DNA of 64,000 nt from assembly GCA_036768485.1 (NCBI GenBank), contig JAVLUZ010000169.1:994936-1058935 (forward strand), written 5' to 3'. The notes beneath the pieces are model-generated. The model ran no database searches and was not told where the DNA came from. It worked only from the letters and a program-made list of their open reading frames with translations. The stretch comes from Mermis nigrescens. Lineage: Eukaryota; Nematoda; Enoplea; Mermithida; Mermithidae. The translations under genes and the position numbers were made by a program. Positions 13,974 through 46,054 of the stretch are shown here, piece by piece. Within the stretch, counting starts at the first letter, position 1; the number at the start of each line of letters is the position of its first letter.

Positions 13974-14370
13974 AGTAGTACTCCATGCCCCTCCAGCACT
14001 ACAATCGGTTAAGCATAGCACATGCTTAAGCATAGAAACACTCGGAAGTATAGGCGCAAAGCGCCAAACTTGAGCGTTCTATTTTGAGTGAAGTGGCCGA
14101 AGCGCCGCGAATTTAGGACCATACTACTACACACAAAGCTAATAAAGTTAGAGAAATCGAATCAAAAAAAGGAACTCGCGCCTACTATTTTGCACTGGTC
14201 GGTCACCTGACAAGCAAAAATCATACTTTTTTTGCTTTGGTGCGAATCGCCAAACTTTTAATGCACAGTCGGTTATCCTGGACGGGCGGAACAAATTAAT
14301 TTAATTTGCATAAGTAGCGAGCAGCGTCCCACAGCATGCTATATGTTTTGGGTCTGTTATAATTTTAGTT
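13974..14370 (+). repeat. Left TIR of copy A
   Basis: Contains the family signature in order: the AGTAGTA end, the dyad cacatgcttaagcatag, the phrase tgcacagtcggttatcctgg, the GC block gacgggcgg, then an AT-rich stretch ending ttttagttcaga. Copy B's two ends have the same chain. This copy is longer because of an extra segment at about 14070-14240. Confidence 0.8.
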
Positions 14371-14632
14371 CAGATCATCAGCTCGCTGCACGTTGACTTC
14401 GCAGATAATGAGTCATCATAGGTTCTATTTTTAGTTCACGATGCATGCCAATGATGACCCATGCCAATACGACAAAGTCCATAGTCCCATAACATGCACA
14501 TGTTTAGTGTTCATTCTAATTTTAGAACATAGAATTATTTCTCCAGTACCATATAAGATATTCCAAAAAACTGAAATTTCCGGTTTTTCCAGTTTTGTCC
14601 AATTCTCATCCTCTTGTTTTTTTATAAAAGGA

Positions 14633-19890: not shown

Positions 19891-20910
19891 ATGGAGGAAA
19901 ATTATTATGATCCTCAAACAGGGTACACGGGGTCGAACCTCTGAGAACACATACAAAACTCCCCAAAAAGGAGGTGATAAACTGGTTAGAAACTCAACCA
20001 ACGTACACACTACATAGACCCGCCCATAAAAAATACGAACGTAACAAGGTGATTGTTTCGAGGATTGATGAACAATGGGCTATAGATTTGGTAGACTTGC
20101 AATCACTGAAAAAGTATAATGATGGTCATGTTTTTCACTTAAACTGTATAGACGTGTTTAGCAAATACGCTTGGAGTGTACCTGTAAAAAAATAAAAAGC
20201 GCAGCATCGATTCTCAATGCTTTCAAACTCATTTTGGATAAAGGCCGAAAACCAGAAAAGGTGCAAAGCGATGCTGGCACAGAATTTTTAACAAACAATT
20301 TCAAACCTTTTTGAAAGAAAATGATATTGATTTTTTCACAACAAACAGTGAGCTCAAGGCATGCGTAGTCGAGCGTTTCACCGCACGCTTAAAGAACGCA
20401 TGTGGCGTTATTTTACGAAACATAACACGCATAGGTACATTGATATTTTAGACGATTTGATTAAAGGTTACAATAATACAAAACATCGTACGATAGGGAT
20501 CGAACCGGCCAATGTTAATAATAATAACGAGTCTCAAATTTTACAGAAAGCATTCAAAATTGATAATAAAAACGTAATTTTTAAGTTTAATGTAGGAGAT
20601 AAAGTTCGCATAAGTAAGGTCAAGCAGAACTTTTGAAAAGGGCTACGAGCCCAATTGGAGTGAAGAAACGTTCGTAATAGATAAAAACTTAAACGCAATC
20701 CTCGCCTACACACTAAAGGACCAGATGGGCGGAAAAAATTAGACGGTGTATTCTATGAGCCAGAACTACAAAAAGTAAACATTATCGATGAAGTTTACGA
20801 ACAGAAAAGTTTTAAACACTCGCAAAAAAGGAAGAAAAACGGAATATTTAGTTAAATGGCGCGGTTTTCCTGAAAAATTCAACAGTTGGGTTAATAATCT
20901 GATAAAAATT
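19891..20910 (+). pseudogene. Integrase with chromodomain, copy A
   Basis: Retroviral-type (rve) DDE integrase, first reading frame starting MEENYYDPQTGYTG at 19891. It meets a stop soon after (19940s) because of a frame break shared with copy B, then resumes as INWLETQPTYTLHRP. The first catalytic Asp lies in AIDLVDLQSL, the second in SDAGTEF (about 20270; deleted in copy B), and the Glu in the KACVVERF region. After several frameshifts the chromodomain is readable (KTEYLVKWRGFPEKFNSWV, 20835-20890). Catalytic residues survive but not in one frame. Confidence 0.85.
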
Positions 20911-20917
20911 ATGAGTC

Positions 20918-20925
20918 TATATAAG
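20918..20925 (+). promoter_or_regulatory. TATA box before zinc protein, copy A
   Basis: TATATAAG followed by aaac, 41 nt before the ATG at 20959; identical spacing to copy B. Confidence 0.6.
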
Positions 20926-20958
20926 AAACCTCTGATAAAAAGCATGCATCGTTAAAAA

Positions 20959-21261
20959 ATGGATTCTACAAACAAGACTATCAAACCCCAAATTCAGCTG
21001 TGCCCTTTACAACTTGCCTCGGCTAATGTATGCACCAACGATCGAACTTTGCTATTTTTTGCCAAAAATTTGCGAAGAACGAGACTGCTTTAGAACAGAT
21101 TCGGGTAACTTATTTTTCGGATACCGATGTGTCCAAAATGTTTGGAATACAATAAGGCGAGACAAGAGGCGGGGATCGCAGTTCTTGAGAGACACTTGGA
21201 AGACAGAAAAAATATGGCTTCACGACGGGAAGAAAGCTTGCTAAAAATAGCATCAGAATAG
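20959..21261 (+). pseudogene. Zinc-ribbon-like small protein, copy A
   Basis: Counterpart of the 102-aa protein at 33921-34229. Starts MDSTNKTIK and shows the CEERDCFRTDSG block. Frameshifts separate the first Cys pair from the second. See copy B for the description. Confidence 0.6.
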
Positions 21262-21338
21262 AGCTGGAGTCTATCTAAGGGATTAAAAATTTAAAGAAGC
21301 ATCATTCTTAAAAATTTTAACTTACTGTGCGGTCGAAA

Positions 21339-21730
21339 ATGTCTTCCGGTCAGCAAGTATTTGTTACTTTTTGTTCCGAGCTAGCGCTCTCGCATTTTTT
21401 CGTTGTTTCCATACAACGATTACCAGCTTGCTCGGGTTGCAACGTATTTTTGAACCGTTTCTCTGATGCCTACAAGGATCAGTGGAAAGCGGCTGCTGCA
21501 GATTACAACATGCAGCGCGAGTTGACAGGAAAAAAACAAACGGCGCGGCTTCTGAGATATTTTGCTATTGCCTTAGAGCGGCAAATGGCCCGTTTCGAAA
21601 CATCTTTCTTTGTCGAAATGTGGCAACATATTCGGCCAGAACGTCGCGTTGTTTGGACACTGTCAACCGAAAATACGTTGATACGCAAATTGAGCGTATC
21701 ATGAGCAATATAGAAAACCTCAATTTGTAA
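21339..21730 (+). pseudogene. Unknown structural-type protein, copy A
   Basis: Counterpart of the protein at 33474-33860, starting MSSGQQVFVTFCSELA and ending in the same MSNIENLNL. Frameshifts occur near 21400 and 21660. The TATA-like box before it has decayed to TATCTAAG (21272-21279). Confidence 0.6.
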
Positions 21731-21885
21731 AAAATGTACATTCGCCTGGTAAAAATCAAAAAATTCTTAAATTAGCGCTGAAGCTCTGGGTGCTCGTCTC
21801 AAGAGGGTCAGAGCAGCTGCATAAGCAGCTGGCAGAGAGAGCTTCATCTATATTAGAAAAAGCACAATTCATACACGTAATGAAA

Positions 21886-22496
21886 ATGGATCTCCGATTT
21901 AAACACCCCTTTTACTTGAATTGTGGCCGGCCCCACAAAGGCTGGAAAATCAACTTTTTGTAAAACAGCTTGTAAAAAAATGCAAATAATTTTATTCATC
22001 CGCCTCCGAAATTCATATGGTGGTTTTTCGCAGAAGATCAGAGTTTGTATAAAGAGATGGAAACCAGCGTAATTTTCATGAAAGGTCCCCTGATTTAAGT
22101 CTAGTTAGGCAACATAGCAGTGAACCACAATTAATTATAATAGATGATCTTATGCAAGAAGCAAAAATGATACATTATTCACACGTGGTTGTCATCATTG
22201 GAATATTTCTGTAATAAACATCGTTCAAAACATATTTTTTAAAGGTTTGAGAACGTCGCATAAACACGGAATATTTAGTTTTAATGAAGAATCCGTCTGA
22301 TCGGCTCCAGGTACAAACACTAGCCCGTCAGCTTTACCCTCATAGTCCTAAATTTTTCTTTAAAGCCTTTAATGATACTACAAAAGAAGCGTTTTCTTTC
22401 CTTTTGGTCGACTTGACACAATCTACACCTGAAAATTCACGCTTCCGCGCTAAAATTTTTTCGAAAAATCCTGTTGTTTACACCGAAAAAGTATAA
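21886..22496 (+). pseudogene. Packaging ATPase, copy A
   Basis: Counterpart of the ATPase at 32708-33319, starting MDLRFKHP. The P-loop region (GPTKAGKS) and the Walker B strand (LIIIDDLMQE) are present at about 21930 and 22130, but frameshifts near 21905, 21960, 22090 and 22260 break the frame. The C-terminal 70 residues (22284-22496) are open. Confidence 0.8.
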
Positions 22497-22499
22497 AAG
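22492..22499 (+). promoter_or_regulatory. TATA box overlapping the ATPase stop, copy A
   Basis: TATAAAAG contains the TAA stop of the ATPase gene (22494-22496) and lies 40 nt before the ATG at 22532. The same overlap is present in copy B. Confidence 0.65.
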
Positions 22500-22531
22500 A
22501 ACTTAAACGTATTTTTAGGTCAAAATAAAAA

Positions 22532-22872
22532 ATGGCTCCAAAACGTTTACAAAAACACATTAGCTACATCGACGTGTTGTCTAAGGCAAAACCTAAACAA
22601 CGTAAGGCAATATTAGAACATGCCGAAAATGACCTAATTTTATGCTTATGCGAATGCATACTCAACGTATTAAATGGAAATGTCCCTTTAAACCGGTCGA
22701 GTTCGAAAAATTGAGTAAATTTAAGACACAAGCTGCGCAACCTATCTGCCTCAAATATATCAGTAAAAAAGAAAAAGGACATATTGGTACAAAAGGGTGG
22801 TTTCCTTCCTGCCTTACTCGCGCCTATATTAGGAATAGCAGGGCAGCTTTAGCAGATGCAATTATTAAATGA
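22532..22872 (+). pseudogene. Small conserved protein (~113 aa), copy A
   Basis: Counterpart of 32333-32674. Open to about 22714 (MAPKRLQKHISYIDVL ... KGNVPL-like block), then frameshifted; the last part (hydrophobic, ending ADAIIK) is in another frame. Its TGA overlaps the next ATG (ATGA) as in copy B. Confidence 0.65.
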
Positions 22873-23537
22873 TGATTCATACAAACAAAATGATTCTAGT
22901 CCCCACGAAGCTAGCTCGGGGAGAAATGAAAGCACTTCCGATTACATGTCAAACCTAGATCGTGAAATGATGAATATTTTAAACGATAATTCGTTACCTA
23001 TGGACGCTAAAATTTTACAATATAATCAAATTTTGCGTAGATATCAAACAGCTAAGCAGGATCTTGAAAACCGTTACAGCTCGAAATTAAGGAAGAGAGA
23101 GCAGCAGACGCTAAATTTTTGCATACAGCCAAGCAAAATTGAATGAACCTATAAAGACAGATGTTGTAGAAGAAGCAGTTTTTAGCACAGTACCCCGAAA
23201 ATGGCAGAAACAAGCCCCACTATTACTTAAATATGCTTGGAAAAGCCCACACATAAAATGGGCAGACAAAGGAGAAATGATTATTGACGGTAATAAAATT
23301 GCAGGATCGAACATTGTTGATTTAGTTTCCGATTTTTCGCGTATTCGAAAATCTGAACCACCTATCGGTGCTGAAATTTTTCTCCAAAAATTAATCGATG
23401 AAAATATTCCAAAAGAATCTATTGTAAATAAAAGTCAATTGAATTTATTGCAAAACCAAGTTTATGCATCGCCATCTCAGTCATTTTCTACGCCATCGTC
23501 ACAAGAGAAAAGCCACTGAAATACTGATAAATCTATA
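22869..23537 (+). pseudogene. Conserved ~200-aa protein, copy A
   Basis: Counterpart of 31660-32336. Open pieces 22856-23146 and 23139-23519 cover SNLDREMMNIL, the KRW/KWQKQ block, HIKWADKGEMIIDG and the Ser-rich tail. A frameshift near 23120 and a one-base loss near 23525 break it. The original stop codon would fall inside the next TATA box (23534-23541). Confidence 0.65.
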
Positions 23538-23541
23538 AAAG
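23534..23541 (+). promoter_or_regulatory. TATA box before minor capsid gene, copy A
   Basis: TATAAAAG followed by aaat, 51 nt before the ATG at 23585, same spacing as in copy B. Confidence 0.6.
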
Positions 23542-23584
23542 AAATTTAAAGCATAATTAAACACTAAAAAGAATTTTACAAAAA

Positions 23585-23985
23585 ATGAGACAACAATTCA
23601 ATCCAGATAATTTTAACGCTTGGTTAGATTACTATACCGACCAGGTTTCCCAGGTCGGATATGGTATGGTGGGGTTCAAGGGAATGCCGCATCAAAGAGG
23701 GGCTGGACTTGGTAGCTTTTTCCGTTCACTTTTTTCGGATGGCTATACCTGGCTTTAAATCAGCAGCATCTAGTGTGGGAAAACAAGCTCTATCTACGGG
23801 TGCACATATTGCCGCAGATGTACTGATGGCCGTAATATTGTTCAATCAATGCAGGCACATCGAAAAGAAGGCGAAAGCTAATTTGCTAAAACAAGCTAGT
23901 GACAAATTACAACGGCAAACGGGGCGAGGTTTGGGCACCCGACCCAAGCCTATAAAGAACTTCGTGTTGACGTATTTTCAACTAA
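23585..23985 (+). pseudogene. pVI/pX-like minor capsid protein, copy A
   Basis: Counterpart of 31190-31613, starting MRQQFNPDNF. The Gly/Arg-rich amphipathic segment (GAGLGSFFRSLF) is intact here. An extra T near 23740 shifts the frame before the second half; copy B is intact at that site but broken upstream. The C-terminal end is fused to the capsid gene by a deletion at about 23985. Confidence 0.65.
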
Positions 23986-24875
23986 CGCCAAAACTCTATT
24001 TTGTCAGGTCAAACTTTTTAAATAATAAGCTCGTACATGACAGCGGAGATAAATATGCATACCGAGCATTTTTAAAGACTGAACTAAATTATGGGTGGGA
24101 TGCTAAAAATTCGCACTTGCAACGGCTTTGTACATCGGGGAGATAGTCCGGGTTATAACGACACAGAAAACAACTATGGATTGAGAAAACGCATAGAATT
24201 TTTTGGTGGATAAGACTATAGTTGAATTAAGTGCGCCACTACACATTGATTTATTTTTACAAGACAGGTTTTTACTTAAATTATACTTACGTCAGGCTTG
24301 AATTAAACAGAAATCCTGACGCGTTTGTTTTGCAAAGTTTTAAGGGTGCCAAAAATGCGCATTTAAGTATTCAACAAATGAAGTTTTGCATACGAAAGGC
24401 AGAAATTTTAGAAAGCACAGGGCTAGCTAATGAAAGAGTACTTGCATCAAACACTATTAAATACCCCGTGCGCAGAGTTACGATGATGAATATACATATA
24501 CCTAGCACTTGTCAATCTACTCCCCTTAACTTCTTATTTTCAGGGCAGCTTCCTATACGCATTATTTTTGGATGTGTGGATGCAGATGCATATAGGGGAA
24601 ATATAAAAAAATCTCCTTTCAATTTTAAATCATACAGTATAAACGATGCAAAAGTAATTTGTGGGGGCGTTACCTTCCCCTCTCACCCATTCAGCTAGAC
24701 TTTAAAAATAACAAGTACCTTAGAGCTTTTGATCAATTATTCGAAACACCTGATATTAGTCGGGACAATAAAGGGAATGGGGTGACAAGAGAAGGGTTCA
24801 AAAAATGGTCAGTGTCTGTTTGCATTTGATTTGACTCCAGACGAAGATGACGGTGGACATTGGGATTTAATTTGG
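23985..24875 (+). pseudogene. Major capsid protein, copy A (both ends lost)
   Basis: Matches copy B's capsid from about residue 95 (KTLF ... LNNKLVHDSGD) to about residue 385 (GGHWDLI). The first ~95 codons were lost in a deletion that joined it to the minor capsid gene. The end is replaced by the A/T tract at 24876. Frameshifts occur near 24120, 24210 and 24290, and the reading frame breaks again after 24690. Confidence 0.85.
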
Positions 24876-26701
24876 GAAAAAAAAATTTTTTTAAAAAATT
24901 TTTAACTGCTGAAACAGTTCACAGCCGTTCGCCAACACACCTCATCGCCCGACACCCGACGTGTTTATACGCCAGATTCACAAAACAACTTAGCCAAGTG
25001 CAGTTTAATATCAACGTAGTCAAAAAAGCGATTAAAGAAGCCAAAATTCAAAGGCGTTTGGTCCAGATGAAATTGCAATGCCGTAATTTAAACACCTCGG
25101 CCCTTTGGTCTGGGTAGTTCCTTACAAATTTGTTCACTGGCCTTGCCTCGACTGCTATTTTGCCTTTGATTTTAAAAAATGCCTGATCATACCTCCATAC
25201 AACCTGGCAAAGATCCTAATACTGCATCATCACATTCCGACCTATCTCACTTTTATGCCCCTGCAAAAATAATGGAACGCCTACTCTTGCCACACATTAA
25301 TAATCATTTACCGCCTGCCTTACACCAGCACGGCTTCAGACCTGGCCATTCAACTACATCTGCCCTCTTGCATCTTACAACTGCAGTATGCCAAGGTTTC
25401 ACCCAACCAAAACCAGCGAAAAGAACAATAGCAGCAGCACTGGATCTGAGAAAGCCATGATTCTGTGGATCACACTATGCTGCTGAAAACTCTGGCCAAC
25501 TCGGATCTTACCTGGCTGGACCTGCCGCTGGTTGGTAGCCAGATTAATGAGGAAGAGAAGCAATATGTACTTTCCGTAATGTGAGATCCAAAAGTACAAT
25601 CACTAGGAATGGTGCTCTTAAGGCCTGTGATTTCACCAGCCTTATTCAATGCATATATATCCGCGACTTGCCAATACCATCGGAAATCCAAGTGATTTTG
25701 TATGCGGATGATATAACCGTGTTCACGAGCAACCCAACAATCAAAATCATGGAAAACCGGTTGAACAACTAATATCACCTCTTTTCGCCACCTTCCCTCA
25801 AAAACGCCATCTCACAATTTCTACCAAAAAATCAACAAGTACACTATTTACTCCTTAAAACCGTGTTAGAAGATTGCCGTAACTAACATCATCAACAACG
25901 TACATCTGCCAACCGAAAAATATCCAAAAATTTTAGGTGTTACGTTTGACCCTAGCCTATCGTTCAACCGCCATACCGAGACGATCAAACAAAAAGTTCA
26001 AAAACGCAACAACATCTTGAAAGCGTTAACTGACAAATATGGGGTGCACAAAAAGAAACGATTCTTCTAACATACAAGGCCATTGGCCGTTCAATTTTGA
26101 ATTATGCTGCACCAGTTTGGACACCATCAATTAAAACATCTAATTTTGGAAAAACTGCAAAGCTGTCAAAATACGGCACTCCATTTGGCTACCAGTTGGC
26201 TTCAACTCACGTCAATCGACCACCTGCATAGCGAAACCAGAATGCTATCTGTATCAGGATCACAACCGACTCTTGGCTGACCAATATTTGTCGCATGCCT
26301 GCATAGAACAAACCATCCATGCAGGCAGTTATTCGGCTGTCCTGGACCACCTTGCCAACGTCAAAGAAATTTCCCGGGCTCAAACCTACACTTAAAATGT
26401 ACTCAGAAACTAGAGTCTGAATGTCATAAGAAATCTACCTCCACCTACGACACTTCACCAATGTCAAAACAATCTCCACAAGAAGGCATCGCCAGCCGTC
26501 ACCGCTTCATCAAACCAAACCCCTTTCATATTTCGTCGCCCACCAAACATCGCCGTTAGACAAGAAACAAATCTCCCACGTTGCTCCCGAGCCAAACTTG
26601 CACAACTAAGGAGCAGATACAGCTACATATTGGCATCAACTCGCAGCCGACTAGACAACACTGGCCAATTATCTGATCTGTTCTTACTGCCTGGCGGCGA
26701 C
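24876..26701 (+). mobile_element. Jockey/R1-like LINE relic
   Basis: From about 25000 the plus strand carries pieces of a non-LTR reverse transcriptase in several frames: a RPIS..CPAKIMERLLLPHI-like block, GFRPGHSTTSALLHL (25340), a GSVISPxLFNxYI-like block (25620) and the catalytic YADDITVFTSNP (25700), then the thumb region and a tail rich in Pro/His up to the N gap. Multiple stops and frameshifts make it dead. The A/T-rich run at 24876-24905 marks its junction with Polinton copy A. The 3' end is hidden by the gap. Confidence 0.8.
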
Positions 26702-26875: not shown

Positions 26876-27480
26876 TAAGCAATTACTAAATAATTTAACT
26901 TTAAACGACGCAAATACCTCATACGTGGAATATCAGAAATGAGAAATGATACATCAGAGTCTGAACAAATGACAGTTAGTGATAGTAATGAAGGCAGTAA
27001 CGATGAAGATTCTTCAGATGTGTCTGAAGACAGCTCAAATGAAGCTGAAATTTAAATCGGTTGGACTAACCTGTTTTTGGCGCTTTTTAGTAAAAGTCGT
27101 GCTTTCAGACTTTAAAGATTTTCCAAATAGTATGCGAGACCGTCAAACAGAACCATTTTAAAGGAGTTGTTTTAATAAAATCTATATTATCCATGATTTT
27201 TATGAATCACTCCAAGATGCTCTAAATGAAAGCGGATTAAAGGCAGAACTAGAGCGTGCTAATGATTACGGTATAATTAAAGTTTGACAAAAAGGAAGTT
27301 GATGAAACAGCTTGGCCAAAAATAAATGTTTAAAAAATTGATCAGCAAAAATGCTGATCTATTTGAGGATGAGCAGATGAAACGAGAAGGCAAAAATGAA
27401 GTTGCCACATCTGTTGAAGAGTCTAGCAGTGCTCTACTAAACCTTCCAGATCGGATAAAAATGCATAGAATATAATCAGA
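26876..27480 (+). pseudogene. C2H2 zinc finger gene relic, copy 3
   Basis: Matches the C2H2 genes at 48366 and 46987 from just after the zinc finger, which lies in the gap. Readable: the acidic Ser/Asp/Glu-rich stretch (MRNDTSESEQM ... SSDVSEDSSNEAE), then IGWTNLF and a charged helical region. Stops and frameshifts are frequent. It ends about 25 bp before the TIR of Polinton copy B. Similar acidic C2H2 genes accompany related elements in other animals as far as I recall, so it may be element cargo. Confidence 0.6.
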
Positions 27481-27503
27481 ACACTACTCTAAAAATATAT
27501 ACT

Positions 27504-27735
27504 AGTAGTAAAGCCTGCCCTTGGAGGTATACAATGCTTAAGCATAGCACATGCTTAAGCATAGAGACTCCATGAGACGCTAAGCGTCTACAATGGGGCC
27601 ATACTCTTACATAGGCGTGAAGCGTCCAACAATGCACAGTCGATTATCCAGGACGGGCGGAGTTAATCAATTTTAATTTGCATAACTAGCTAGCAGCCTC
27701 CTCCCATGCTACTGTTACTAATTTTAGTTCATTAA
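27504..27735 (+). repeat. Left TIR of copy B
   Basis: Begins AGTAGTA, then the dyad cacatgcttaagcatag, the phrase aatgcacagtcgattatcc, the GC block and an AT-rich part ending ttttagttca. It is the inverse of 40375-40606 with scattered differences; the outermost ~30 bp are less alike. Confidence 0.85.
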
Positions 27736-27805
27736 CTGCACGTTGAAGCATTTCCTCGTTTATTTTTTGCATGTTTTTCAAACTTCGAGACATGTAGGTT
27801 CACTA

Positions 27806-28090
27806 GCTTATGAGACAAAAGTTGATATTTTTCTTATCTTATTTATAGCTCATGGGTGCTTAGCCGTTTTATCCTATGTGTGCAATCATTTTATTTCTAG
27901 CTTATGAGACAAAACATGTTATTCATTCTCATCTTATTTATAGCTCATAGATTTAGCAGCCGTTTTATCCTATGTGTGCAATCATTTATTTCTATAAACA
28001 TGAATAAACTTGTTATTCATTCTCATCTTGTTTATAGCTCATGGGTGCACCTTTTACTTTTGCTCTATGTGTGCAATGTTTTCATTTTGA
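27806..28090 (+). repeat. Three ~94 bp tandem repeats at the element's 3' end
   Basis: Three units each contain a ttatttatagctcat phrase and a ctatgtgtgcaat phrase (about 27806, 27900 and 28000). They lie between the TIR and the last gene (TBP-like). The role is unknown; possibilities are a terminator region, a replication signal or simple slippage. Confidence 0.75.
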
Positions 28091-28095
28091 ATGGT

Positions 28096-28616
28096 TCAGT
28101 CAAACACACTATGCATTTTCTCAAAGCGTTTCAGTTGTGCCTCACTCCTAGCTCCCGTTATAACAATTTTTCCCGTTGTGAAAATAAGAACTGAATGGTA
28201 GACCATCCGGAAATCGTAGTTTTAAACCGGGGAATAATTCTTGTTCGTAATCAACAAATTTTTTGTAATTTTGAGCTAAATTCCGTAAATTAATCATCGA
28301 ACCTAAATTTCCCGATCCGACTATATTGTGAATTTTGTGTTCAGTTAGTTTTAGCTCGTATCCGCTTTGCTTTAACATTTCACAAATTTTTTCGTTCGCA
28401 ATTTTGTTTTGTTCAACGCCTTTAGCACCGATGCAAACAAGTTTGCCGCTACTAAACAACAGAGCCTGTACATTTTGGCTCTGTTATTCGAATTACTGCA
28501 GCGTTGAACTTTTTATGATCAAATTCCACACCCTCACAAGTTCTCTTAATTTTATACAAATTTAAAAGCTTTGAAGAGACTCGAGCTGTAGAAACAACAT
28601 TTCGAATCGTAATCAT
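28096..28616 (-). CDS. TATA-binding protein-like factor (two frameshifts)
   Basis: The last gene of the element. Its two direct repeats have the TBP saddle pattern: repeat 1 begins IRNVVSTARVSSKL and continues through FNAAVIRITEPKCT to a FSSGKLVCIGAK block; repeat 2 begins IHNIVGSGNLGS and contains YEQELFPGLKLRF and a final GK-I-V-type strand. These are the landmark positions of eukaryotic and archaeal TBP (SSGK, ELFPGL). ATG at 28616 was chosen because it precedes the first strand and lies 33 nt after a TATA box. One extra base near 28467 and one near 28165 shift the frame, so as assembled it yields fragments. It has no introns and lies between capsid genes and the TIR, so it is element cargo. 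Expected role: promoter recognition for the element's own genes (inference). Confidence 0.85.
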
Positions 28617-28648
28617 GATTGAGAATGATGAAATTTTAATAGACACGA

Positions 28649-28657
28649 CTATTTATA
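28649..28657 (-). promoter_or_regulatory. TATA box of the TBP-like gene
   Basis: TATAAATAG, starting one nucleotide after the stop codon of the penton gene (28659-28661) and 41 nt before the TBP ATG. The element's TBP may therefore control its own promoter. Confidence 0.65.
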
Positions 28658-28658
28658 T

Positions 28659-29395
28659 CTAAAAATATGAAGGTTTAATCTTTCGAAAATGCAACTTGAC
28701 AATCACTTTTCCGGAAATAAACGGTATAAATAGATCCAAATCGTCTTTTATGTTTATTTCTATGCTAGAAATATCTTTTACGAGGACGGGTATGTAGTGG
28801 GGAAAATCATAGATTCTGTCAATGATGTTGGGGTATTTTCCTTCCACGTTTATGATGCGCAAAAGAGGGGCTGAAATATCGCCTACGATCTGGGGTTCTA
28901 AAATGTTGGCATAGACGTACATGGTTTCAAGACCACCCCCACCAAGTCCGGCTCCCTATCCGACCATCCTGTATCTTTTAGTACTGTTTCTTTAAATCCT
29001 AAAATATGTGCTATTCTTTCGGACAGTTTCACTGATTTCACAAAGGATTCGAGCATCATTACAGAAACGCGTTTTATTGAAGTGTAATAATTGAATTCTA
29101 CTCCTTCTACTTTTTCTACACAAAATTTCATAGCCTCTATAAATTCCTGGATGGAGTCGTAGCATCCTTCCTGCATTTGAAGTTTATATTCAATACCATC
29201 TGCACTTATAATTTTAATTTCCGTTTCGTGTTTTCTTATTGTTTGCCAATTATGGGGGTAAATAAATTCCGAGAGACCACACTCCCAATCACCGATTAGT
29301 TTTAATTTTTGCGGTAAATGTACAATAAACTTTGAAGGCGTATTCTGCCTATCGCTTATCGTGTTGCTGGGCAAAGTTATGTAAAATTGATCCAT
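28659..29395 (-). CDS. Candidate penton/minor capsid protein (one frameshift)
   Basis: Read as two overlapping frames: 29395-28898 (starts MDQFYITLPSNT, contains GDWECGLSEFIYPHNWQ) and 28922-28659 (MYVYANILEPQIVGDI ... HFRKIKPSYF). The first ends in a short nonsense tail after a frame break at a run of five C (about 28935-28940). The second continues with a YVYxNxxEPQxVGD block that I associate with the same protein family in related invertebrate elements. Size (~240 aa if continuous), beta-rich composition and place after the protease fit a single-jelly-roll penton, but that is inference. The ATG lies within the last codons of the protease gene (19-nt overlap). Confidence 0.6.
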
Positions 29396-29886
29396 TTTTG
29401 ACAAATTTGGTTTATGATAAAATCTTCATCTATGACTGGGGTGTTTATCTTAAATAGACTATTTACAAAACCCGTTACAAATTCGTCCGCATAACTTTTT
29501 TCTAAACTTTTTAGAATTAGTTTCATGGGCACCCCTCTGCACCTCCAAATTAAAAAATAAACACACATTTGGCCGCACGTAGACGTTAGTGGCTGCTGCA
29601 CGCATTTTTTATTATGCTTAATTTTTGTAGCATACTGTAGAATATAATTTTGTGTTTGGTTATCAGGCGCTAAGCCGTAGCTGTCGAAATAGTCGCATGA
29701 GTCATGCGCGTCAAAATACATGCAAGTCCAATGCGAACCAGGTTGGGTACTAGGGTCCATATTCATTACCAATGCAGCAGGTTTGCTAAAAATGGGTGGT
29801 AATTTATCGCTCGGGTAAACACCAAGAAAATTTTGACCGACCGCTTGGTCGCCTTTTAAAACATTTGAGAGTTGGAAGGTATTCAT
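29377..29886 (-). CDS. Adenain-like cysteine protease
   Basis: 169 aa, intact. The catalytic His lies in GSHWTCMYFD (about residue 52), an acidic residue in CDYFDSYG, the oxyanion Gln in QQPLTSTCG, and the nucleophile Cys in TCGQMCVYFL. This is the His-Asp/Glu-Gln-Cys order of the C5 (adenovirus protease)/ULP1 clan. Members of this family mature capsid proteins in Polintons and adenoviruses. ATG at 29886 is 2 nt after the capsid stop, and its 3' end overlaps the penton start, so it sits within a tightly packed capsid block without a TATA box of its own. Confidence 0.9.
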   Translation of the reverse strand: MNTFQLSNVLKGDQAVGQNFLGVYPSDKLPPIFSKPAALVMNMDPSTQPGSHWTCMYFDAHDSCDYFDSYGLAPDNQTQNYILQYATKIKHNKKCVQQPLTSTCGQMCVYFLIWRCRGVPMKLILKSLEKSYADEFVTGFVNSLFKINTPVIDEDFIINQICQKWINFT

Positions 29887-32704: not shown

Positions 32705-32712
32705 CTTTTATA
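32705..32712 (-). promoter_or_regulatory. TATA box overlapping the ATPase stop
   Basis: TATAAAAG contains the ATPase TAA (32708-32710) and lies 38 nt before the next ATG (32674). The same arrangement is conserved in copy A. Confidence 0.7.
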
Positions 32713-33319
32713 CTTTTTCGGTGTAAACAACAGGATTTTTCGAAAAAATTTTAGCGCGGAGACGTAAATTTTCAGGTGTAGATTGCGTCAAGTCTACTAA
32801 AAGGAAAGAAAACGCTTCGTTTGTAGCATCATTAAAGGCTTCCAGAAAAAACTTAGGATTATGAGGGTAAAGCTGACGGGCTAGTGTTTGTACCTGGAGC
32901 CGATCAGACGGATTCTTCATTAAAACTAAATATTCCGTGTTTATGCGACATGTTCTAAGACCTTTGAAAAATATGTTTTGAACGATATTTACGACAGAAA
33001 TATCCCAATGATGACAACCGCGTGTAAATAATACATCATTTTTTGCTTCTTGCATAAGATCGTCTATTATAATTAATTGTGGTTCAGTGCTATGTTGCCT
33101 AACTAGACTTAAATCAGGAGGTCCTTTCATGAAAATTACGCTAGTTTCCATTTCTTTATGCAAACTCTGATCTTCTGCGAAAAACCACCATATAAATTTC
33201 GGAGGTGGATGAATAAAATTATTTGCATTTTTTACGAGCTGTTTAACAAAAGTTGATTTTCCAGCCTTTGTGGGGCCGGCTACAATACAAGTAAAGGGGT
33301 GTTTAAATCTGAGATCCAT
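32708..33319 (-). CDS. DNA packaging ATPase (A32/FtsK-like)
   Basis: 203 aa from ATG 33319, intact. The P-loop is GPTKAGKSTFVKQL (about residues 15-28), followed by a WWFAED-like strand, Walker B LIIIDDLMQE (about residues 83-92), an RGCHHWDISV region and a sensor-like segment with NTEYLVLMKNPSDR. The short size and motif order suit the A32-type genome-packaging ATPase of Polintons and NCLDV relatives. The frame is open further upstream to 33448 but only through non-ATG codons. It has no TATA box of its own and may share the transcript of the upstream 33474-33860 gene. Confidence 0.8.
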   Translation of the reverse strand: MDLRFKHPFTCIVAGPTKAGKSTFVKQLVKNANNFIHPPPKFIWWFFAEDQSLHKEMETSVIFMKGPPDLSLVRQHSTEPQLIIIDDLMQEAKNDVLFTRGCHHWDISVVNIVQNIFFKGLRTCRINTEYLVLMKNPSDRLQVQTLARQLYPHNPKFFLEAFNDATNEAFSFLLVDLTQSTPENLRLRAKIFSKNPVVYTEKV

Positions 33320-33473
33320 TTTTATTGTGTATAAAAATTGTGTTTTTTCTAATATAGATGAAGCTCTCTCTGCCAGCTGCTTATGCAGCTGCCCAGCCTG
33401 CGGGACGAGGACCCGGAGCTTCAGCGCAGGCCAAAAAAATTTTTTCAATTTTTTTTCAGGCGAATGTACGTTT

Positions 33474-33919: not shown

Positions 33920-33927
33920 CTTATATA
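33920..33927 (-). promoter_or_regulatory. TATA box overlapping a stop codon
   Basis: TATATAAG contains the TAA (33921-33923) of the zinc protein gene and lies 67 nt before the ATG at 33860. Confidence 0.7.
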
Positions 33928-34229
33928 GACTCCGATGCTATTTTTAGCAAGCTTTCTTCCCGTCGTGAAGCCATATTTTTTCTTTCTTCCAAGTGTCTCT
34001 CAAGAACTGCGATCCCCGCCTCCTGTCTGGCCTTATTGTATTCCAAACATTTCGGACACATTGGTATCGAAAAAAATAAATGACCCGAATCTGTTCTAAA
34101 ACAGTCTCGTTCTTCGCAAATTTTTTGGCAAAAATAACAAAGTTCGATCGTTAGTGCATACATTGGCCGAGGCAAGTTGCGGGAGCACAGCTGAATTGGG
34201 GGTTTAATAGTCTTGTTTGTAGAATCCAT
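33921..34229 (-). CDS. Zinc-ribbon-like small protein (102 aa)
   Basis: Intact, MDSTNKTIKPP start. Cys pairs CYFCQKIC and MCPKCLEY enclose an ERDCFRTDSG loop, a likely zinc-binding fold; a charged helix follows (EAGIAVLERHLEERK). It could be a transcription or nucleic acid-binding factor, but I cannot place it in a family. The TATA box is 41 nt upstream. Confidence 0.6.
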   Translation of the reverse strand: MDSTNKTIKPPIQLCSRNLPRPMYALTIELCYFCQKICEERDCFRTDSGHLFFSIPMCPKCLEYNKARQEAGIAVLERHLEERKNMASRREESLLKIASESI

Positions 34230-34273: not shown

Positions 34274-35241
34274 TCATAATTTTATCAGATTATTAACCCA
34301 GCTGTTGAATTTTTCAGGAAAACCGCGCCATTTAACTAAATATTCCGTTTTTCTGCCTTTTTTGCGAGTGTTTAAAACTTTTTCTACTACGTAAACTTCA
34401 TCGATAATGTTTACTTTTTGTAGTTCTGGCTCATAGAATACACCGTCTAATTTTTCACCCATCTGGTCCTTTAGTGTGTAAACGGGGGGATTGCGTTTAA
34501 GTTTTTTATCTATTACGAACGTTTCTTCACTCCAGTTAGGCTCGTAAGCCCTTTTCAAAAGTTCTCTTGACCTTACTTATGCGAACTTTATCTCCTACAT
34601 TAAACTTAAAAATTACGTTTTTATTGTCAATTTTGAATGCTTTCTGTAAAATTTGAGACTCGTTATTATTATTAACATTGGCCGGTTCGATCCCTATCGT
34701 ACGATGTTTTGTATTATTGTAACCTTTAATCAAATCGTCTAAAATATCAATGTACCTATACGTGTTATGTTTCGTAAAATAACGCCACATGCGTTCTTTA
34801 AGCGTGCGATTAAAACGCTCGACTACGCATGCCTTGAGCTCACTGTTTGTTGTGAAAAAATATCGCTTTGCACCTTTTCTGGTTTTCGGCCTTTATCCAA
34901 AATGAGTTTGAAAGCATTGAGAATCGATGCTGCGCTTTTATTTTTTACAGGTACACTCCAAGCGTATTTGCTAAACACGTCTATACAGTTTAAGAGAAAA
35001 ACATGACCATCATTATACTTTTTCAGTGATTGCAAGTCTACCAAATCTATAGCCCATTGTTCATCAATCCTCGAAACAATCACCTTGTTACGTTCGTATT
35101 TTTTATGGGCGGGTCTATGTAGTGTGTACGTTGGTTGAGTTTCTAACCAGTTTATCACCTCCTTTTTGGGGAGTTTTGTACGTGTTCTCAGAGGTTCGAC
35201 CCCGTGTACCCTGTTTGAGGATCATAATAATTTTCCTCCAT
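34274..35241 (-). pseudogene. Retroviral-type integrase with chromodomain (broken)
   Basis: The N-terminal piece starts MEENYYDPQTGYTG (35241). A frame break with stop at about 35190 is shared with copy A. Then 35158-34823 carries the HHCC-less core start (TLHRP ... AIDLVDLQSLKKYNDG, first catalytic Asp; DVFSKYAW). About 80 bp are deleted at about 34858, removing the second catalytic Asp (present in copy A as SDAGTEF) and shifting the frame. The core resumes as KACVVERFNRTLKERMW with the catalytic Glu, then a basic region; one extra T near 34553 shifts again. The last frame (34558-34274) is a chromodomain (VEKVLNTRKKGRKTEYLVKW). It cannot catalyse integration; copy B would need a helper element. 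Confidence 0.9.
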
Positions 35242-36239: not shown

Positions 36240-39200
36240 CTAAAAGCCGTACGGCACAGTAGAGAAATCGGGTTTTACAACACGTTTATTGTAAACAATT
36301 TTATACTTCTTCGATGTGTCTTCTGTCACAATAGTGTGGTCGGGCAAGCGACGAATTTGCGGAAAATATACAACTTTTTCGACAATATTGTTGTCCTGTA
36401 CAAACGTTTTGACCATTTTTAGTAAGGAGTGAAAGTTAATTCTTGTGGCAGTTGTTGATGAGAGTGTGAAGCCGCGTACTTTTATATGGTAATAAAATTT
36501 ACCATCTTTTGCTGAGCGTACCTTGTACGCGTAGTTTTTGGGGCCTCCGCTTACAAATTCTTCAATGTAGCTGCCCTCGCCATACTCCTTTAATTCATCG
36601 GTCATATTTCCTAAATACGACCCTATAGGCACTTGATACTCGTCTTTTCCCAGTGTGCTCTTGAATATGACACTGTCTGTGTCAAAATATAATACACGAT
36701 CGCCTAGCTTTTCCAAATGTTCGTACAATCTGAGCCGCGCTTGAGTTGTTGTATAAGCTGCAAGCACGGGGTTTGTATTTCCCATCACATCGGCGAATTC
36801 GTCTTCCTTTGCATGTGTAACAGCCATCAGATTTTGGTTTATGGCGTTAATTGAGTAGATTACATTTGAAGGGTCGAAAATTAGGTCAAAGTATGGTGCA
36901 GGGTCGGTAAAAAAGGACACTTTCGACATATTATTTCTTTGCCCGAACTTTCCCCAGAAAGAGTTCAACATAAGTTTACTTAATGACCGAAGTCCTGGGT
37001 TTTTTGTAATTTTCGTAGCGTCTAGCTCAATCCCTTCATTTTCTTTGTACTCTTGAACGTATCTTTCTTTGTCTTCCTCCGATTTCACCCATGAAGGCCA
37101 TCCGTCAGATTCTTGTTTCAGTTTCATAAATTTATTGATATAGGAGGTGAAGAGGCCGCCGTTTGGGTTGTTTATTTTATCATATTGCTCTGTTTTTTCG
37201 TAGTGCCATATCTCATATATTTCCATTATTTTATAGCCCAATTCTAGCGCTTTGTATACTTCGAGCGTCACCCATGCTCCCACTATCGCACGTTCTTCAT
37301 CATTGTGCTCGCATCTTGTTGTTTGATGCGATTCAGTGCATGTTCGGCATAGCGGAAAATATAACTTTTCGCCAAATCTATAGGGCAATAATGGATGGTA
37401 CAGATTACGGGGTGGCAGGATTTTTGCTTTGATTAGGCCTTCATAGGGTCGGGTTTGAGCTGTGATATTAGTAAAATTTTCAGTGAGAATTTGCGGGTGG
37501 CCAATAGGGTACAAGCCGTATTTATTTACGGTCGGGTATAGGCTGCATATATCTGTGTACATTATATGCTCTAACGCTTCGCCGTTCTCATTGCGTTTTA
37601 TTTTCTCGTTTAACTTTATTGCGTTTGTGCGCCCACCATAAAACGCTTCTCTGGGGTCGAGTGGGTCAACAATTTTCACCGAGTCGAAAAATTGTTTCAT
37701 TACAGGATTTATTTTCAATTCCTGTCTTAATTCGCACTCCCAGAGTTCTATAACACCGTAGCCCTTGGCTTCAATTTCTTTGCGCCGTCTCACTGTGTTT
37801 TGAAAGGCTTCTTCGGCGGATGTTATTTGATCAGCCGTCATTTGCGTCCTTTTCTTCATACACTTAGGGCACCCGTGCCAGAAGCACCCGTTAAATTCGT
37901 ATACTGTATTTTCATGTAGGCCGTCTACGCGATAGTTGCCCACTTTTTGCTCGCCCATATTGCGTGCATGCCTGATGTTGATTTTATTCGTCTCGCTCAT
38001 CCACTTTAGCCATTTAATGGCTGTTATCGACTGTTTTTCCATCCGCCTATACCCTCCGTGTGGTACAATGCCTATTGTTTTTGGCTTTAAGTAAGTTGAC
38101 CGGAAAACTTTATTGCACGCGCTCGCTATTGTTAATGAGCACTCGAACGGATCCATTCCGGTCTCGGCTAGAAATAAATTGCGAAATTTAAGGCAGCATC
38201 GCCTTAAAATGTCGACGTCAGACTCGCAATAAGCCAAGAGTTCTGACTTAAAGTCGAAAATTTTCCCTTTCTGTTCGGCGTACCATTTTTGGAAGGCTTC
38301 TTTGTTTTTGGGACTCATGGTGGCTGGGGAATAGTACCACGCGTCTGGCCACTCACCCACATAGTTTTCGTTCGCCCTTGTGTTAAAGAGATGTGGGAAA
38401 AATCCTTTTTTGAGTTCAGGCTCATCGAACGTTTTTGGCAGAGCGGATAGGGCCATGGGGAGAAAGTTGAAGGAATCGATTAGTTTTACAGACCCAGCAC
38501 TCAGGCTCATGATTTCTAACCCTTTTGTGATGATAGTGGGGGCAAGTGCTTGTTTAAAAAGGTATTTTAAGATGAAATGTCCGTCGAAACCTTTAGCGTT
38601 ATGGGCGATTGCTATCGCGTTTTTGAGGCCAAACAGGTAATCACAAAACGCATCTGTACAATTGTCACCGTAAAATATACGTCTATTTTCCCCGCATTTA
38701 TCGCACTGTCCTAGGGGTTTTGCTATGCAATCTGTACAAACAGTGTGCGCTATACACAGATTGGGTTCGTGTTCAAGTCTTGAATTGCCACACGCTTTTT
38801 CTTGTCTGGTTTCAAAATCGAAAAACACGTATTTATTCTTTTTCTTGTCATCCTTTTCTTCGGCTACAATTTGCATGTAACACTTGTGATCATTTATTGG
38901 CACGTCAGCTTTGCATGTTTTGCAATAAAAGTGACCGCACTTATGCTTCTGTATTTTATCGGCTCTATTCATATGCCGCCCACAGTTTTTACAGAGCATC
39001 ATTTGCTGACAAATCGATTTTTCGTTTTTTCCGACTTTTTTATGATTTTCAAAACACTTTCGACCCCTGAATAAACGATTACAGTCATTGCATTCCATGA
39101 GTGCTATGTTAGGGCAAGCAGGACCATGACAACAGGGGCAAAGTTTAGAACAGCGGTGATCATCCTTATTATTATAGCCCTTGTTGCAAGGTTCACAAAA

Positions 39201-40137
39201 GTAACTACGGTTCATAAAGCCGGCCATACTGCCTATGACGTCAAAATGACTGTCGTGGTGATATAAGTGTATAACTTTTTCTGCGGGCGGCCCTTCAAAC
39301 ACTATAGCATTGCAAAAATCAGCACTAAAAACTTTAATTTGAAAATTTGGCATTGCAGCCTGCAATGCTTGCAGTTCTGGTATGCCACAAGGGCCCACAT
39401 GATCTTTAAGACCAGCAAGATCCATCAACTCCTTAGCGTTTGTTCGTTGAACCGTGTATCGATATGCGTCACCTTTACGTATTGCCATATATTTAGATTT
39501 AAGAGTTTTGTCATCAGGCTTTTCCATGTGCAAGGCTCGTGCTTTTGCTACAACTAATGCTCTGGGTAAACATAAATCATCGCTGTTTTTGATTTTTACA
39601 AAGCAGCGTTTCATTTTCATTTCTTTTTCCAAATTTATGAACCGTCGTTTATGCTGACCTGAGCCACTCGGCGGGCTAACGTGTACTATTTTTATGCGCG
39701 TTTCTGGTTCTTGCAGACGCACTTCTTCATTAGATTGCAGGATGCGTTCAATAGTGTGTACGATTTGCTCGCCTTTTATTTGTTCACCTTTTCGGAAAGG
39801 CACGATCGCCGGTTTTTAAGTGTTGGGTGTGTAAGTTGCAGGCCCACCATGTCAGTCGTGTTAGAACCGTCCAGAATATGTGTGATGGCACTATCGAAAA
39901 TTTCGACCAAATTTTTTCCCAAATCGAGACGGTCTAGATTTTTAAAGTTCAATGTGTATGCTCGCCCTTCGGTGTTGAAGCGTTTGATTTTTTGCGTTTC
40001 TGGCTCCCCCAGCTCATAAAAATCTTCTGGGGAAACCACTCATCCACAATTTCAAGGTCTTCCTCTCGCATTTCTTCATCAGACTCGTACCACATGTCTT
40101 GCGTTGAAAGGTCTTCCATTTCAATGTCAGAAGCCAT
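36240..40137 (-). CDS. Protein-primed family B DNA polymerase (5' frameshifts)
   Basis: The core frame (39803-36240, 1187 codons) is unbroken. It has a Cys-His region (HRCSKLCPCCHGPACP and following CxxC pairs); exonuclease motifs FFDFETRQEK, AHNAKGFDGHF and YCESDVDIL; a FNGCFWHGCPKC endonuclease-like insertion; polymerase motif A TDICSLYP, motif B KLMLNSFWGKFG and motif C YFDTDSVIF. All catalytic acids are present. The core frame has no ATG at its edge; homologous N-terminal sequence continues upstream in two further frames (39776-40039 and 39949-40137), so the gene probably starts at MASDIEMED (40137). Breaks lie near 39814 (one base lost) and near 40035. It replicates the linear element by protein priming. 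Confidence 0.9.
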
Positions 40138-40230: not shown

Positions 40231-40374
40231 CCCTCTGAGATGAGACTATTTTTGGTATCAGTCAAACCGGAAATTTCCGGTTTTTTAAAATTTTTTGTTT
40301 TAAAAATAGAACCCATGATGACTCATCGTCTGCGAGTCAACCAAGATAGCTAAACTAAAACTGAACTAAAATTA

Positions 40375-40606
40375 GAACAGTAGCATGGGGGAGGCTGCTA
40401 GCTAATTATGCAAATTAAAATTAATTGGCTCCGCCCGTCCTGGATAACCGACTGTGCATTGTTGGACGCTTACGCCTTGTGTAGTAGTATGGCCGAAAAT
40501 TCGGCGATTCAAGAGGGTGAGTGCACGTGTACTGAGAGCGTGCGTGGTCCAAATGGAATCTCTATGCTTATGCACGTGCTATGCTTAAGTGCTTTGAGGG
40601 GGCCTT
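40375..40606 (-). repeat. Right TIR of copy B
   Basis: Inverse of 27504-27735 with the same order of landmarks (AT-rich stretch, GC block, tgcacagtcggttatcc, cacgtgcataagcatag dyad). The outermost bases differ from the AGTAGTA end of the other TIRs and run into the 17-bp array of the neighbouring Mutator-like element, so the tip may have been lost. Confidence 0.8.
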
Positions 40607-40850
40607 GTTCGCGCGTCTCACTTGTTCGTGCGTCCCACCTGTTCGTGCGTTCCACCTGTTCGTGCGTCCCATGTGTTCGCCAAATGGTATAACTTGAAAA
40701 ATAAATACTGTAGAGAATCCCACCTGTTCGTGCGTCCCACCTGTTCGAACGTCCCACCTGTTCGTGCATCCCACCTGTTCGAGCGTCCAATATTTTTACG
40801 CGTCCCACCTGTTCGTGCGTCTCACCTGTTCGTGCGTCCTATATGTTCGA
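40607..40850 (+). repeat. Left 17-bp tandem array (TIR)
   Basis: Roughly ten copies of acctgttcgtgcgtccc, interrupted at about 40675-40725 by an AT-rich segment (caaatggtataacttg). Single-base variants are common. Frames through it give repetitive, spurious peptides. Confidence 0.9.
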
Positions 40851-41300
40851 AAAATATTATACAACAATATATTCGTGAAGAAATCTTCCACCTCATCATG
40901 CGTACCGCTTCTCCGAATGTCCCAGTCTTCACGGGTTCAGCTAATTCGAAAAATCATTAACCTAAGATCTTTGTTAATGAAAAATGCAAACTTTGCGTTT
41001 GAATCGTCCTTTTGTGCCATGAAATGTAATTGAAAAAACACACGAATCCTTTATTTACTCTCCCAGATTGGTATATTGTTTAGTCTACTATCGTAAAAGT
41101 AAGAAACTACATTCCTTATTTTATTACAAGAATTATTTTGTGCAGGAAGGAGAGGACTTTGTTCTCTCTGAGAGAGTAGTGTAATATGTACTCTATCAAC
41201 ATACATAAACAAACAAACAAACAAACAATTAACGCAGTGAACGCGTAAGTACTACTGTTGCAGTTCTATTCATCCGTAAGGTTAGGTTGCGTCTCTAAAT

Positions 41301-44300
41301 ATGGCTCATGATTTTGGGGAAGCAGTTTTCATGCTAACTGTACATGGCAGTTTGACTCTGCTAAAATGTGAAAGCCGAACAACACCAAATCATTTTTGGT
41401 TGTTTCGGAAGAATAAAACTTCTCGTTTATCAGATGGATTGCAATGTACTTATTTTCAATGTCAAAATTGCAGCAAATTAGGAGGTGAAAAAAGTCGGGT
41501 CAAGGTTATAGATAATCGAATTACAACGGATCCAGAAGTAGGCCATAATCCACTTTGCGAACCGCTGGATTTAAGTTCAACCGAAGCTCTTTGCTTGAAA
41601 AGAGAAATTATTAAATCAGCTGCAGAAGGCGAGAAACCGATTCGAGCATACAGGTAATAATTCGTGCTCCATCAGATATAGGGCTGTAGTAAGGATAGGG
41701 GGCGTGGGGGCGCCGGTAAACTAACTTTTCTTAACAGTCGAAAATAGGTCCGACTGAAAATTTTTTCGAATTTTTGCTTAAAAATGGAAGGAAATTATGT
41801 TTAAATAGTTGATTCTGTGCTCCAGAAATCTTTTTAGGAATCATAAAAATGTTTACTACTATAAGAATAAGTCTTTGATGCCGAAATATGACTTCCAGGC
41901 CGCCAAAAAGCAAATAAATGTCATTGGAAAAAATGGAAAAATTTATGAAATTATGATCACCGACGGCCGAAAAATCAACTTTCCATTCCTTATCTCACCA
42001 ATCACTTTGGGCTAATGGGGGCCCGCCGTCCCCATCACCCTAAATCTGTCCCTTAATTCCTCCAATAAGCCGCCCCTCTGAATTTTCCCTTGAATCCGCC
42101 TCTGCCCCTGAATTCGTGGAAGTTTTTCTTATCGTGCTAACAAGAATTGCAGAAAATTTGATTTATTTTACAGATTTATCCTATATGAAGAAGTTAAAAT
42201 TGCACCAAATAGACATTTTTTATCTAGATTAAAACGAACTAATCGAAATTACGCAATCCAGGGACGTATATAAGCGCAATGTACTAAGACATTTACGTTT
42301 ATCTTGCTTCATTGACTCAAGCTTGCTTATCTTCTGGTGTACCACTTTTGAATTTTTTGCAATTGTACGATGTACAACTTTTTCATACGTTTTTTACTTA
42401 TTAACCTTAGCATTTGTGATTATATAGACTGATCTGCAGACTGAAGAAGCTAAAAATATATATCGAACATGTATCTTTCGAGAACAAGGTCGAGAAATCA
42501 TGAAATAAAAAATTCACTTCAATTTTTAAAATAACTTTGTTCGAAATATCGAATGCGGAATTCATTGGTTTAAAAATGCATATTTTATAATTTTAAGGAG
42601 CGGTCTAGCTAAAATACCGCGGCGCTTTCCAAACGAGAATGTTCGGCAAGAGGTTTCCTTGGCTGTTCCAGCATTTCGTTCTATGCGTTCTTCTTTGTAT
42701 AGGTATGACTAACATATATTTTTAAAACATGAACTACGATTGATGCGCAGCCGATCTGATGAGTTCCAAAAATGAAATTACGTCAAAATTGTCACAATTA
42801 CGCCAAAACCTGTTTATGTGCTGAAATAACCGAGAATCTATGTTATTCTACACTAGCTGATTAATTTTAAACTATGTTATTGAAACTCTGAAACTATGTT
42901 ATTCTACACTGGCTGGAGAGTTTAGAGGGGGCAGGGGCACCCCCTGTCGTCGAAAAATTAGGCGCAAAAAAGAGCACGCTCTATCCATTAAGATAAAAAA
43001 TTCTGAGTTTTTCGAAAAAAATTTTTCCATCCAAAAGAGCTATAAAAAAGTGTTATTTTTGGTCAGACTTGGGCCAAAATGATAGAAAATACTTCACATC
43101 GGGCGCGAAGGCCGAAAATTCGAAAATTTAACATCAAAGACAGTCAATTTTTCCATCTTTCCGTGCATTATCTTACCTAACAAAAATTTAATTCCGGCTA
43201 AGGGGGCGCCCCCCCTTAAATACGGCCCTGCTGGGAGATATAGACCCTAAACCTCCTCCCACATGCATGTCTGGTCACTAATCATTATCACTTTGTTTAT
43301 GATGGTTTTTTATCCCATGCTTGTGACTTGAACAAAGATTCGTATTCTTATTCAGTAACAAGCCAATGCATGTCACTTCTGAACTTTTTATTATTTAGGG
43401 CTAGTTCGAAATGTCTGATTCCAATTCCAAGCCTTGACATGTTGCCAGTCGAGTATCAACTGACATTGAACGGGCGCGAAGCCTTTGCTAGAAATGATCC
43501 AGAGCCTCATGAGCGTTTTCTGCTTTTGAATGAAGAACGAATGCTAGTCTATGGATCTGACCTCGAGTTAGAAGTGATGTTTAATTCTGAATTTTGGATC
43601 GGCGACGGAACGTTCGAAATGTGTCCATCTATCTTTAGTCAGCTTTACACTATTCACGCATTCGTGAACGGAGAAGGTGAGTACGAGTTTACGACCATAC
43701 ATGCACAGCGTAGCCGATCTTGGAGGGGGTCAACCGGATCGAGAAAAGTCAAAAATGAACGTTTTTTGGGGTCAAGATACATAACCTAGAAACTAAAAAT
43801 AAAATTATGGGGATCTGCAAAGGGTATTTCACTTGAAGATGCAAGCCCTCAAACCCTCCTCACCACACATGGGCGTGGGGGTTTGGGGGTATGCACCCCA
43901 GAAGTTGAAATACCCCCAGAAATCAAAATGCTACCCCCGCCTAATTCCATTATTAAATTTTGTTTTTTCATGATTTTTTTGATGCCAATGAAATTAATTA
44001 GTATTAAGATTTATATTATATTTATTATTATATTTATTATATTTATTTATATTTATTAATCCAGTACGATTTAAATATTAATATTTTTAGGAATCCCGTG
44101 CTGTTATGCTTTATTGCCTGACAAGACACGCAATAGCTACGAGTCCATCTTTCGTGCCATTTTGGATGCGATAACGTTGCGGTTCGGAGGACTAGGTAGC
44201 TTACATACGTTCATTCTCGATTTTGAAGCTGCTGCACACAATGCTGTTCGAACTGTTTTTCCTGGTGTTACTACTAAGGGATGTTTATTCCATTTTGGAC

Positions 44301-45822: not shown

Positions 45823-46054
45823 CTACGATTTTTCGTCAAACATAATACGAATTTTTTTGAATAAATCTTGGACGTTAAATTCTCAGATCTTACTCCATTC
45901 TGATAATATTGAAACTAAACTTTTCTGAACTTAAGTGTCTAAAAATTTGAGCTGGCATGAGTGCTTTTATTTAAAATAATTATATAAATTGTATTTGATG
46001 AGACATAAAACATTCACTCAACAGGTCGGATGCATGAAGAGATTGGATTTCCGA
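45823..46054. other. 3' untranslated/spacer DNA of the MULE
   Basis: AT-rich with an AATAAA at about 45859-45865 that could serve as polyadenylation signal for the transposase; otherwise nothing seen. Confidence 0.4.

Follow-up and report, generated by a model that had tools for sequence, protein, structure and literature searches.

A TATA-binding protein homologue carried by Polintons in the genome of the nematode Mermis nigrescens

Does a Polinton carry a TATA-binding protein (TBP) of its own and, if so, what would the element gain from it? It is generally assumed that small DNA viruses and transposons rely on the general transcription factors of their hosts; giant DNA viruses have large genomes and many possess their own RNA polymerase. 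An earlier note on the window (the whole stretch of 64 000 nucleotides analysed here) had proposed that an element within it encodes a TBP. The genome searched was the assembly that holds the window (524 Mb, 860 contigs). The gene is indeed carried by the element and by its family more widely, and divergent intact TBPs occur in other Polinton families. From the sequences, we consider it probable that Polintons of this genome carry a core-only TBP as standing cargo, which would bind the elements' own TATA boxes and recruit host TFIIB and RNA polymerase II (Pol II). The protein would act as the general transcription factor of the element.

The window gene is intronless, lies on the minus strand and contains two TBP repeats, as the earlier note had described. 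Both of its open pieces match PF00352, the family on which that note had staked its reading, above the Pfam cut-off of 22.9 bits (longer piece, E = 1.7e-18, 66.7 bits; shorter piece, E = 2.3e-8, 34.2 bits), and the longer piece matches human TBP (1jfi_C; PDB phmmer, E = 2.2e-18). The two pseudo-symmetric repeats and the saddle fold are those of the TBP family. A TBP fold is seen in the model, and giant DNA viruses likewise encode one: the matching giant-virus TBP models in BFVD, A0A1C9C511 (Heterosigma akashiwo virus), A0A3G4ZLQ9 (Terrestrivirus) and Q8QNL4 (Ectocarpus siliculosus virus 1), show 13–22% identity to the model. The warning that this copy may be dead was apt, as its frame is broken first after ruler codon 51 and a second time by codon 155; the pieces located by tblastn correspond to ruler codons 1–51 and 52–155, followed by a tail in other frames. 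An assembly error, which had been suggested as the cause, is unlikely for the first break because 4 of 20 sister copies share it.

An inner pair of inverted repeats (about 91% identity) brackets the block from TBP to the DNA polymerase gene (PolB; Table 1), and an outer pair (26876–27502 and 46330–46961, 83%) lies outside it. Once the inner pair is taken as the terminal inverted repeat (TIR), TBP stands first and not third from the tip; the outer pair may have been used for the previous count. Upstream of TBP, and all on the minus strand, are o28659/o28898, the protease, the gene in the capsid position, the ATPase candidate, a four-cysteine protein, the integrase and PolB. Neither o28659 nor o28898 has a Pfam match, and the 433-codon capsid candidate matches nothing in Pfam and, by sequence, nothing in PDB below E = 0.37. 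At locus L024 the relative of the ATPase candidate attains the Pox_A32 cut-off and that of the protease is slightly under the PF00770 cut-off (20.4 versus 21.3 bits). Relatives of the integrase exceed the rve cut-off at L024 (44.3 bits) and L016 (47 bits), and that of L024 also exceeds the chromodomain cut-off. A protein-primed-type PolB, an rve integrase (recognized through its relatives) and an adenain-type protease identify the element as a Polinton. These genes, the chromodomain of the integrase, the ATPase candidate, the capsid-like gene and the inverted repeats are shared with Polintons/Mavericks and adintoviruses, from which the window family differs by its additional TBP.

Table 1. Features of the TBP-bearing Polinton in the window, with copies of the four-cysteine protein at other loci
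Feature	Position	Strand	Basis or remarks
Left inner TIR	27530..27731	.	91% over 136 nt and 92% over 37 nt to inverted 40362-40589
TBP-like gene tail, out of frame	28096..28150	-	tblastn pieces, ruler codons 135-166 and 164-177
TBP-like gene, open piece 2 (remainder of repeat 1 and most of repeat 2)	28148..28459	-	PF00352, 1jfi_C
TBP-like gene, open piece 1 (repeat 1)	28455..28616	-	PF00352; start ATG at 28616
TATAAA box, 41 nt 5' of TBP ATG	28652..28657	-	sequence
o28659	28659..28922	-	match to the C-terminal part of a gene forming one 258-codon frame in L024; tblastn
o28898	28898..29404	-	match to the N-terminal part of the same 258-codon L024 gene; tblastn
Adenain-type cysteine protease	29377..29886	-	PF00770 E 3.6e-6, 27.2 bits versus cut-off 21.3
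Putative major capsid protein, 433 codons	29889..31190	-	open frame; assigned from size and gene order
Packaging-type ATPase candidate	32708..33448	-	Adeno_IVa2 and Pox_A32, both below cut-off
Small four-cysteine (CxxC...CxxC) protein	33921..34229	-	alignment, tblastn; often near TBP in other families
Four-cysteine protein, copies at other loci	L024:2526-2864; L016:4389-4769; L012:5464-5790		tblastn
Integrase, broken pieces	34274..35158	-	rve core 34823-35158 (PF00665 E 3.6e-5, 24.4 bits, below cut-off 32.6); chromodomain 34277-34558 (PF00385 E 1.5e-10)
Family B DNA polymerase, organellar/viral type	36240..39803	-	PF03175 E 1.6e-40; 1187 codons open
Right inner TIR	40362..40589	.	inverted pair with 27530-27731, about 91%

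Further repeats lie in and around the element. Three GAGCTATAAATAAGATGAG-like stretches lie between TBP and the TIR (27820–28060) and may represent repeated TATA elements. An inverted, decayed and partial second Polinton copy at about 20000–25117(+) extends to the capsid gene; comparison of 27601–29000 with window positions 1–26600 gave a sole match (115 nt, 77%, to the TIR end, at 14260–14372), so that this second copy has no recognizable TBP. A 17-bp minisatellite (TGTTCGTGCGTCCCACC-like) occupies 40589–40878, where it abuts the right TIR, and 45986–46308. To the right of the element are a MULE transposase fragment (44114–44542(+); PF10551, 2.3e-7) and a large palindrome (46276–49081) with arms that are 97–100% complementary in the five blocks listed.

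In a PF00352 profile search of the assembly, 2553 first-look candidates gave 150 scored rows; the top two rows are exons of the same ordinary TBP gene on C73. Absence from sister elements, which the earlier note thought would be telling, was not observed: the window gene has at least 39 other copies with 86–97% DNA identity. Of 20 sister copies fetched, six have one open frame of at least 164 codons from a conserved ATG and 14 are interrupted earlier. Intact copies are many, and a search with the L024 TBP gave at least 150 rows, 139 of the 150 listed having no in-frame stop. The PF00352, window-gene and L024 searches and five capsid loci together give at least 277 distinct TBP loci outside the C73 gene on at least 147 contigs, a tally that could include a host TRF, if one exists. 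The codon-51 break is common to five copies on five contigs (the window, L029, L032, L033 and L034), and the capsid rows adjoining all five are 99–100% identical to that of the window (the C19 row spans codons 99–433). Elements with a broken TBP have therefore spread, either through supply in trans or because TBP is partly dispensable, and an intact TBP in cis is thus not strictly needed. This spread, and the interruption before codon 164 in 15 of 21 copies (the window and its 20 sisters; L035 and L036, open-frame sisters with divergent C-terminal ends, are interrupted near the C-terminus), would fit a relic that was acquired early, was once active and is now mostly carried along by element replication. 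We regard such a relic as rather unlikely, since stop-free frames prevail among the L024-type rows and dN/dS is low between diverged TBP copies, which indicates purifying selection.

Unlike eukaryotic TBP (the core of TFIID), the mobile-element-encoded Polinton TBP consists of the core domain only, without an N-terminal domain, and has changed TFIIA contacts. An alignment of 15 relatives keeps the four phenylalanines and the glutamate that we take to be the intercalating and TFIIB-contact positions, respectively, with one F305Y replacement in L003. TFIIA-contact positions are altered to a varying degree, several being changed. Loss on this face is uneven: of the four positions, L023 retains three, and one is retained in an archaeal-type TBP. 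Thr222 is replaced in eight of these 15 sequences, Asn257 is replaced in L016, L017 and L021, and L054 and L055 show a difference immediately behind Phe288, so DNA use may differ from that of host TBP.

Many element genes are preceded by a TATA box at a constant distance. The motif TATAWA is found at −25 to −60 of 46 of 77 element gene starts, compared with 8.3 in dinucleotide shuffles (maximum 15 of 300), and at −70 to −105 of seven of the same 77; these starts were de-duplicated from 117, with some internal ATGs and overlapping starts remaining. The box is absent from all three protease, all four g31660 and all three L003-type TBP starts. A first automatic test was weaker (20 of 57 versus 5.9 in shuffles, maximum 13) because internal ATGs of broken genes were included; its opposite-strand count (16 of 57) is a poor control because the motif is near-palindromic. 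A PF00382 search over the genome gave three rows of ten candidates, with no sign of an element TFIIB. It is possible that the element TATA boxes are used by host TBP only. In the reading that we prefer, TBP made by an active element would bind that element's TATA boxes, its four-phenylalanine wedge would bend them and its conserved stirrup (YEPELFPGL-type) would recruit host TFIIB and hence host Pol II. The altered TFIIA face may allow the protein to work with less help or control from host TFIIA/TFIID, and the element in the window, with its broken TBP, is perhaps served in trans by intact copies.

The same surfaces would also suit a competitor or decoy that sits on host TATA promoters or sequesters host TFIIB/BRF, thereby lowering or redirecting host transcription instead of acting at element promoters: DNA and TFIIB contacts are kept and several TFIIA contacts are changed, as for a dominant competitor, and TBP copies are many. 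We consider this unlikely, as the TATA boxes before element genes offer a direct target in cis and a harmful factor present in hundreds of copies would probably be costly unless silent.

The association of TBP with Polinton genes was followed from both sides. Among 20 TBP loci (10-kb stretches, compared with the window Polinton proteins), 14 contain one or more of the genes for PolB, capsid, protease, ATPase and integrase, and at L026 none of the window's Polinton proteins was matched in this stretch. The genome holds 98 rows related to the window capsid candidate; with one fragment row left out, 22 of 97 have a listed TBP at a distance of up to 8 kb (10 of 33, 12 of 41 and 0 of 23 by identity group), among the matches listed. 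Five capsid loci with no listed TBP nearby were fetched and all five contain a TBP within 3 kb, with one open frame in four and an interrupted frame in L053.

Two layouts are found. In the first (the window, L023, L025, L049, L050, L051 and L053–L056), TBP ends the structural block after o28659; it adjoins a TIR in the window, L049 and L050. The gene o28659 directly precedes TBP in all three fetched sister loci, with the full order capsid–protease–o28898–o28659–TBP in L049 and L051 and two partial copies in L050. In L049 and L050, sequence resembling the inner left repeat is present about 0.3–0.4 kb past TBP, and in L051 only 37–41 nt of this repeat are matched, 2.8 kb from TBP. In the second layout (L021, L024 and L052), TBP is encoded on the opposite strand, with integrase to one side of it and ATPase to the other; in L021 and L024 it lies inside inverted repeats. 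By binding to TATA or Pol III promoters, TBP might tether the integrase, with its chromodomain (PF00385), and so help to choose integration sites; yeast Ty elements are targeted through TFIIIB, and TBP adjoins the integrase gene in L021 and L024. Gene order varies, however, and in the window 5.6 kb separate TBP from the pieces of the integrase, and we hold a role of this kind to be highly improbable.

Four relatives score 126–168 bits against PF00352. An alignment of eight proteins (A1) represents at least six families, seven of the proteins being 35–39% identical to the first, and the L023 protein shares 40–43% identity with the TBPs of human, yeast and Arabidopsis. In two trees the sequences fall into type I (the window, L023 and L054–L056; support 100/100) and type II (the remaining Polinton TBPs, with proteins from metagenomes; 97/94 and 97/95). 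Archaeal-type TBPs are separated from both types, which lie on the eukaryotic side. In the phylogeny against host TBP, which the earlier note had called for, the Polinton TBP does not fall beside it as a near copy; the grouping of type I differs between the trees, being beside host and plant TBPs in the first (95/89) and part of a three-way split in the second. A single origin of all Polinton TBPs is not rejected by AU tests (p = 0.181 with P0066 left out; p = 0.503 for the second tree, which left out P0066, P0180, P0122, P0125, the window piece, L031, L035 and L036 and added L052 and L054–L056). P0066, labelled archaeal, is placed among eukaryotic rows in the first tree; the archaeal label stands without an organism name in eight of 14 rows (P0009, P0010, P0013, P0030, P0066, P0092, P0094 and P0105). 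A chance retrocopy or pseudogene of host TBP in one element, as the broken and intronless window copy might suggest, carries practically no weight given the same position in sister elements, the TBPs between inverted repeats in other Polinton families and at all five capsid loci, the trees and the purifying selection.

Within type II of the first tree are P0006, P0014, P0122, P0123 and P0125, from metagenome contigs of 956–3683 bases, and this kind of TBP therefore seems not to be limited to this genome. Protein searches with alignments A1 and A2, the source of these five, found mostly archaeal-type TBPs among the matches listed (120 of 4543 and 120 of 2008, respectively), and that with the window piece alone found no matches. 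IMG/VR, searched with the window piece, the TBP alignments, P0006 and the capsid alignment, yielded no confirmed relative, which is weak evidence because the scan requires exact short patterns. A fuller account, which we advance tentatively, is that of a Polinton radiation with a private TBP, acquired once or twice, selected in at least six families and with kin in metagenomes, which has a remodelled TFIIA face, reads element TATA boxes and borrows host TFIIB and Pol II, with element transcription split from that of the host at the TBP step.

A TBP in Polintons or adintoviruses was not found in print; most subscription papers lay outside the scope of this search, and novelty is provisional. 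Term searches within PMC11071296, PMC11071308, PMC8097293, PMC10120064 and PMC4028283 gave no hit for TATA or TBP. According to PMC10675990, TBPs occur sporadically in Cymbomonas, an alga, on viral elements of putative mirusvirus origin, where the gene lies on an endogenous viral element as it does here. If our reading is correct, a selected TBP in animal Polintons of about 13 kb would mean that even midsize elements can have a basal factor. The elements may bring their own switch for turning on their genes, which would provide a simple handle on Polinton expression and bear on how giant viruses acquired TBP.

Two further kinds of gene were noted near TBP. Of the 20 TBP loci, 15 gave a tblastn match to the four-cysteine protein, which is the only window Polinton protein matched in five (L010, L011, L012, L014 and L020). 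Considered as a candidate TFIIB-type ribbon, it gave no Pfam match above cut-off, a poor AF2 model (pLDDT 62.6) and a best PDB fold E of 0.24. F-box proteins (PF12937) are encoded at L016:5692-6555(+) (1.8e-11) and L013:6232-7047(-) (3.9e-8), with an F-box-like gene below cut-off at L026:6370-6729(+) (0.0012); they possibly give these Polinton loci a hold on host ubiquitin ligases.
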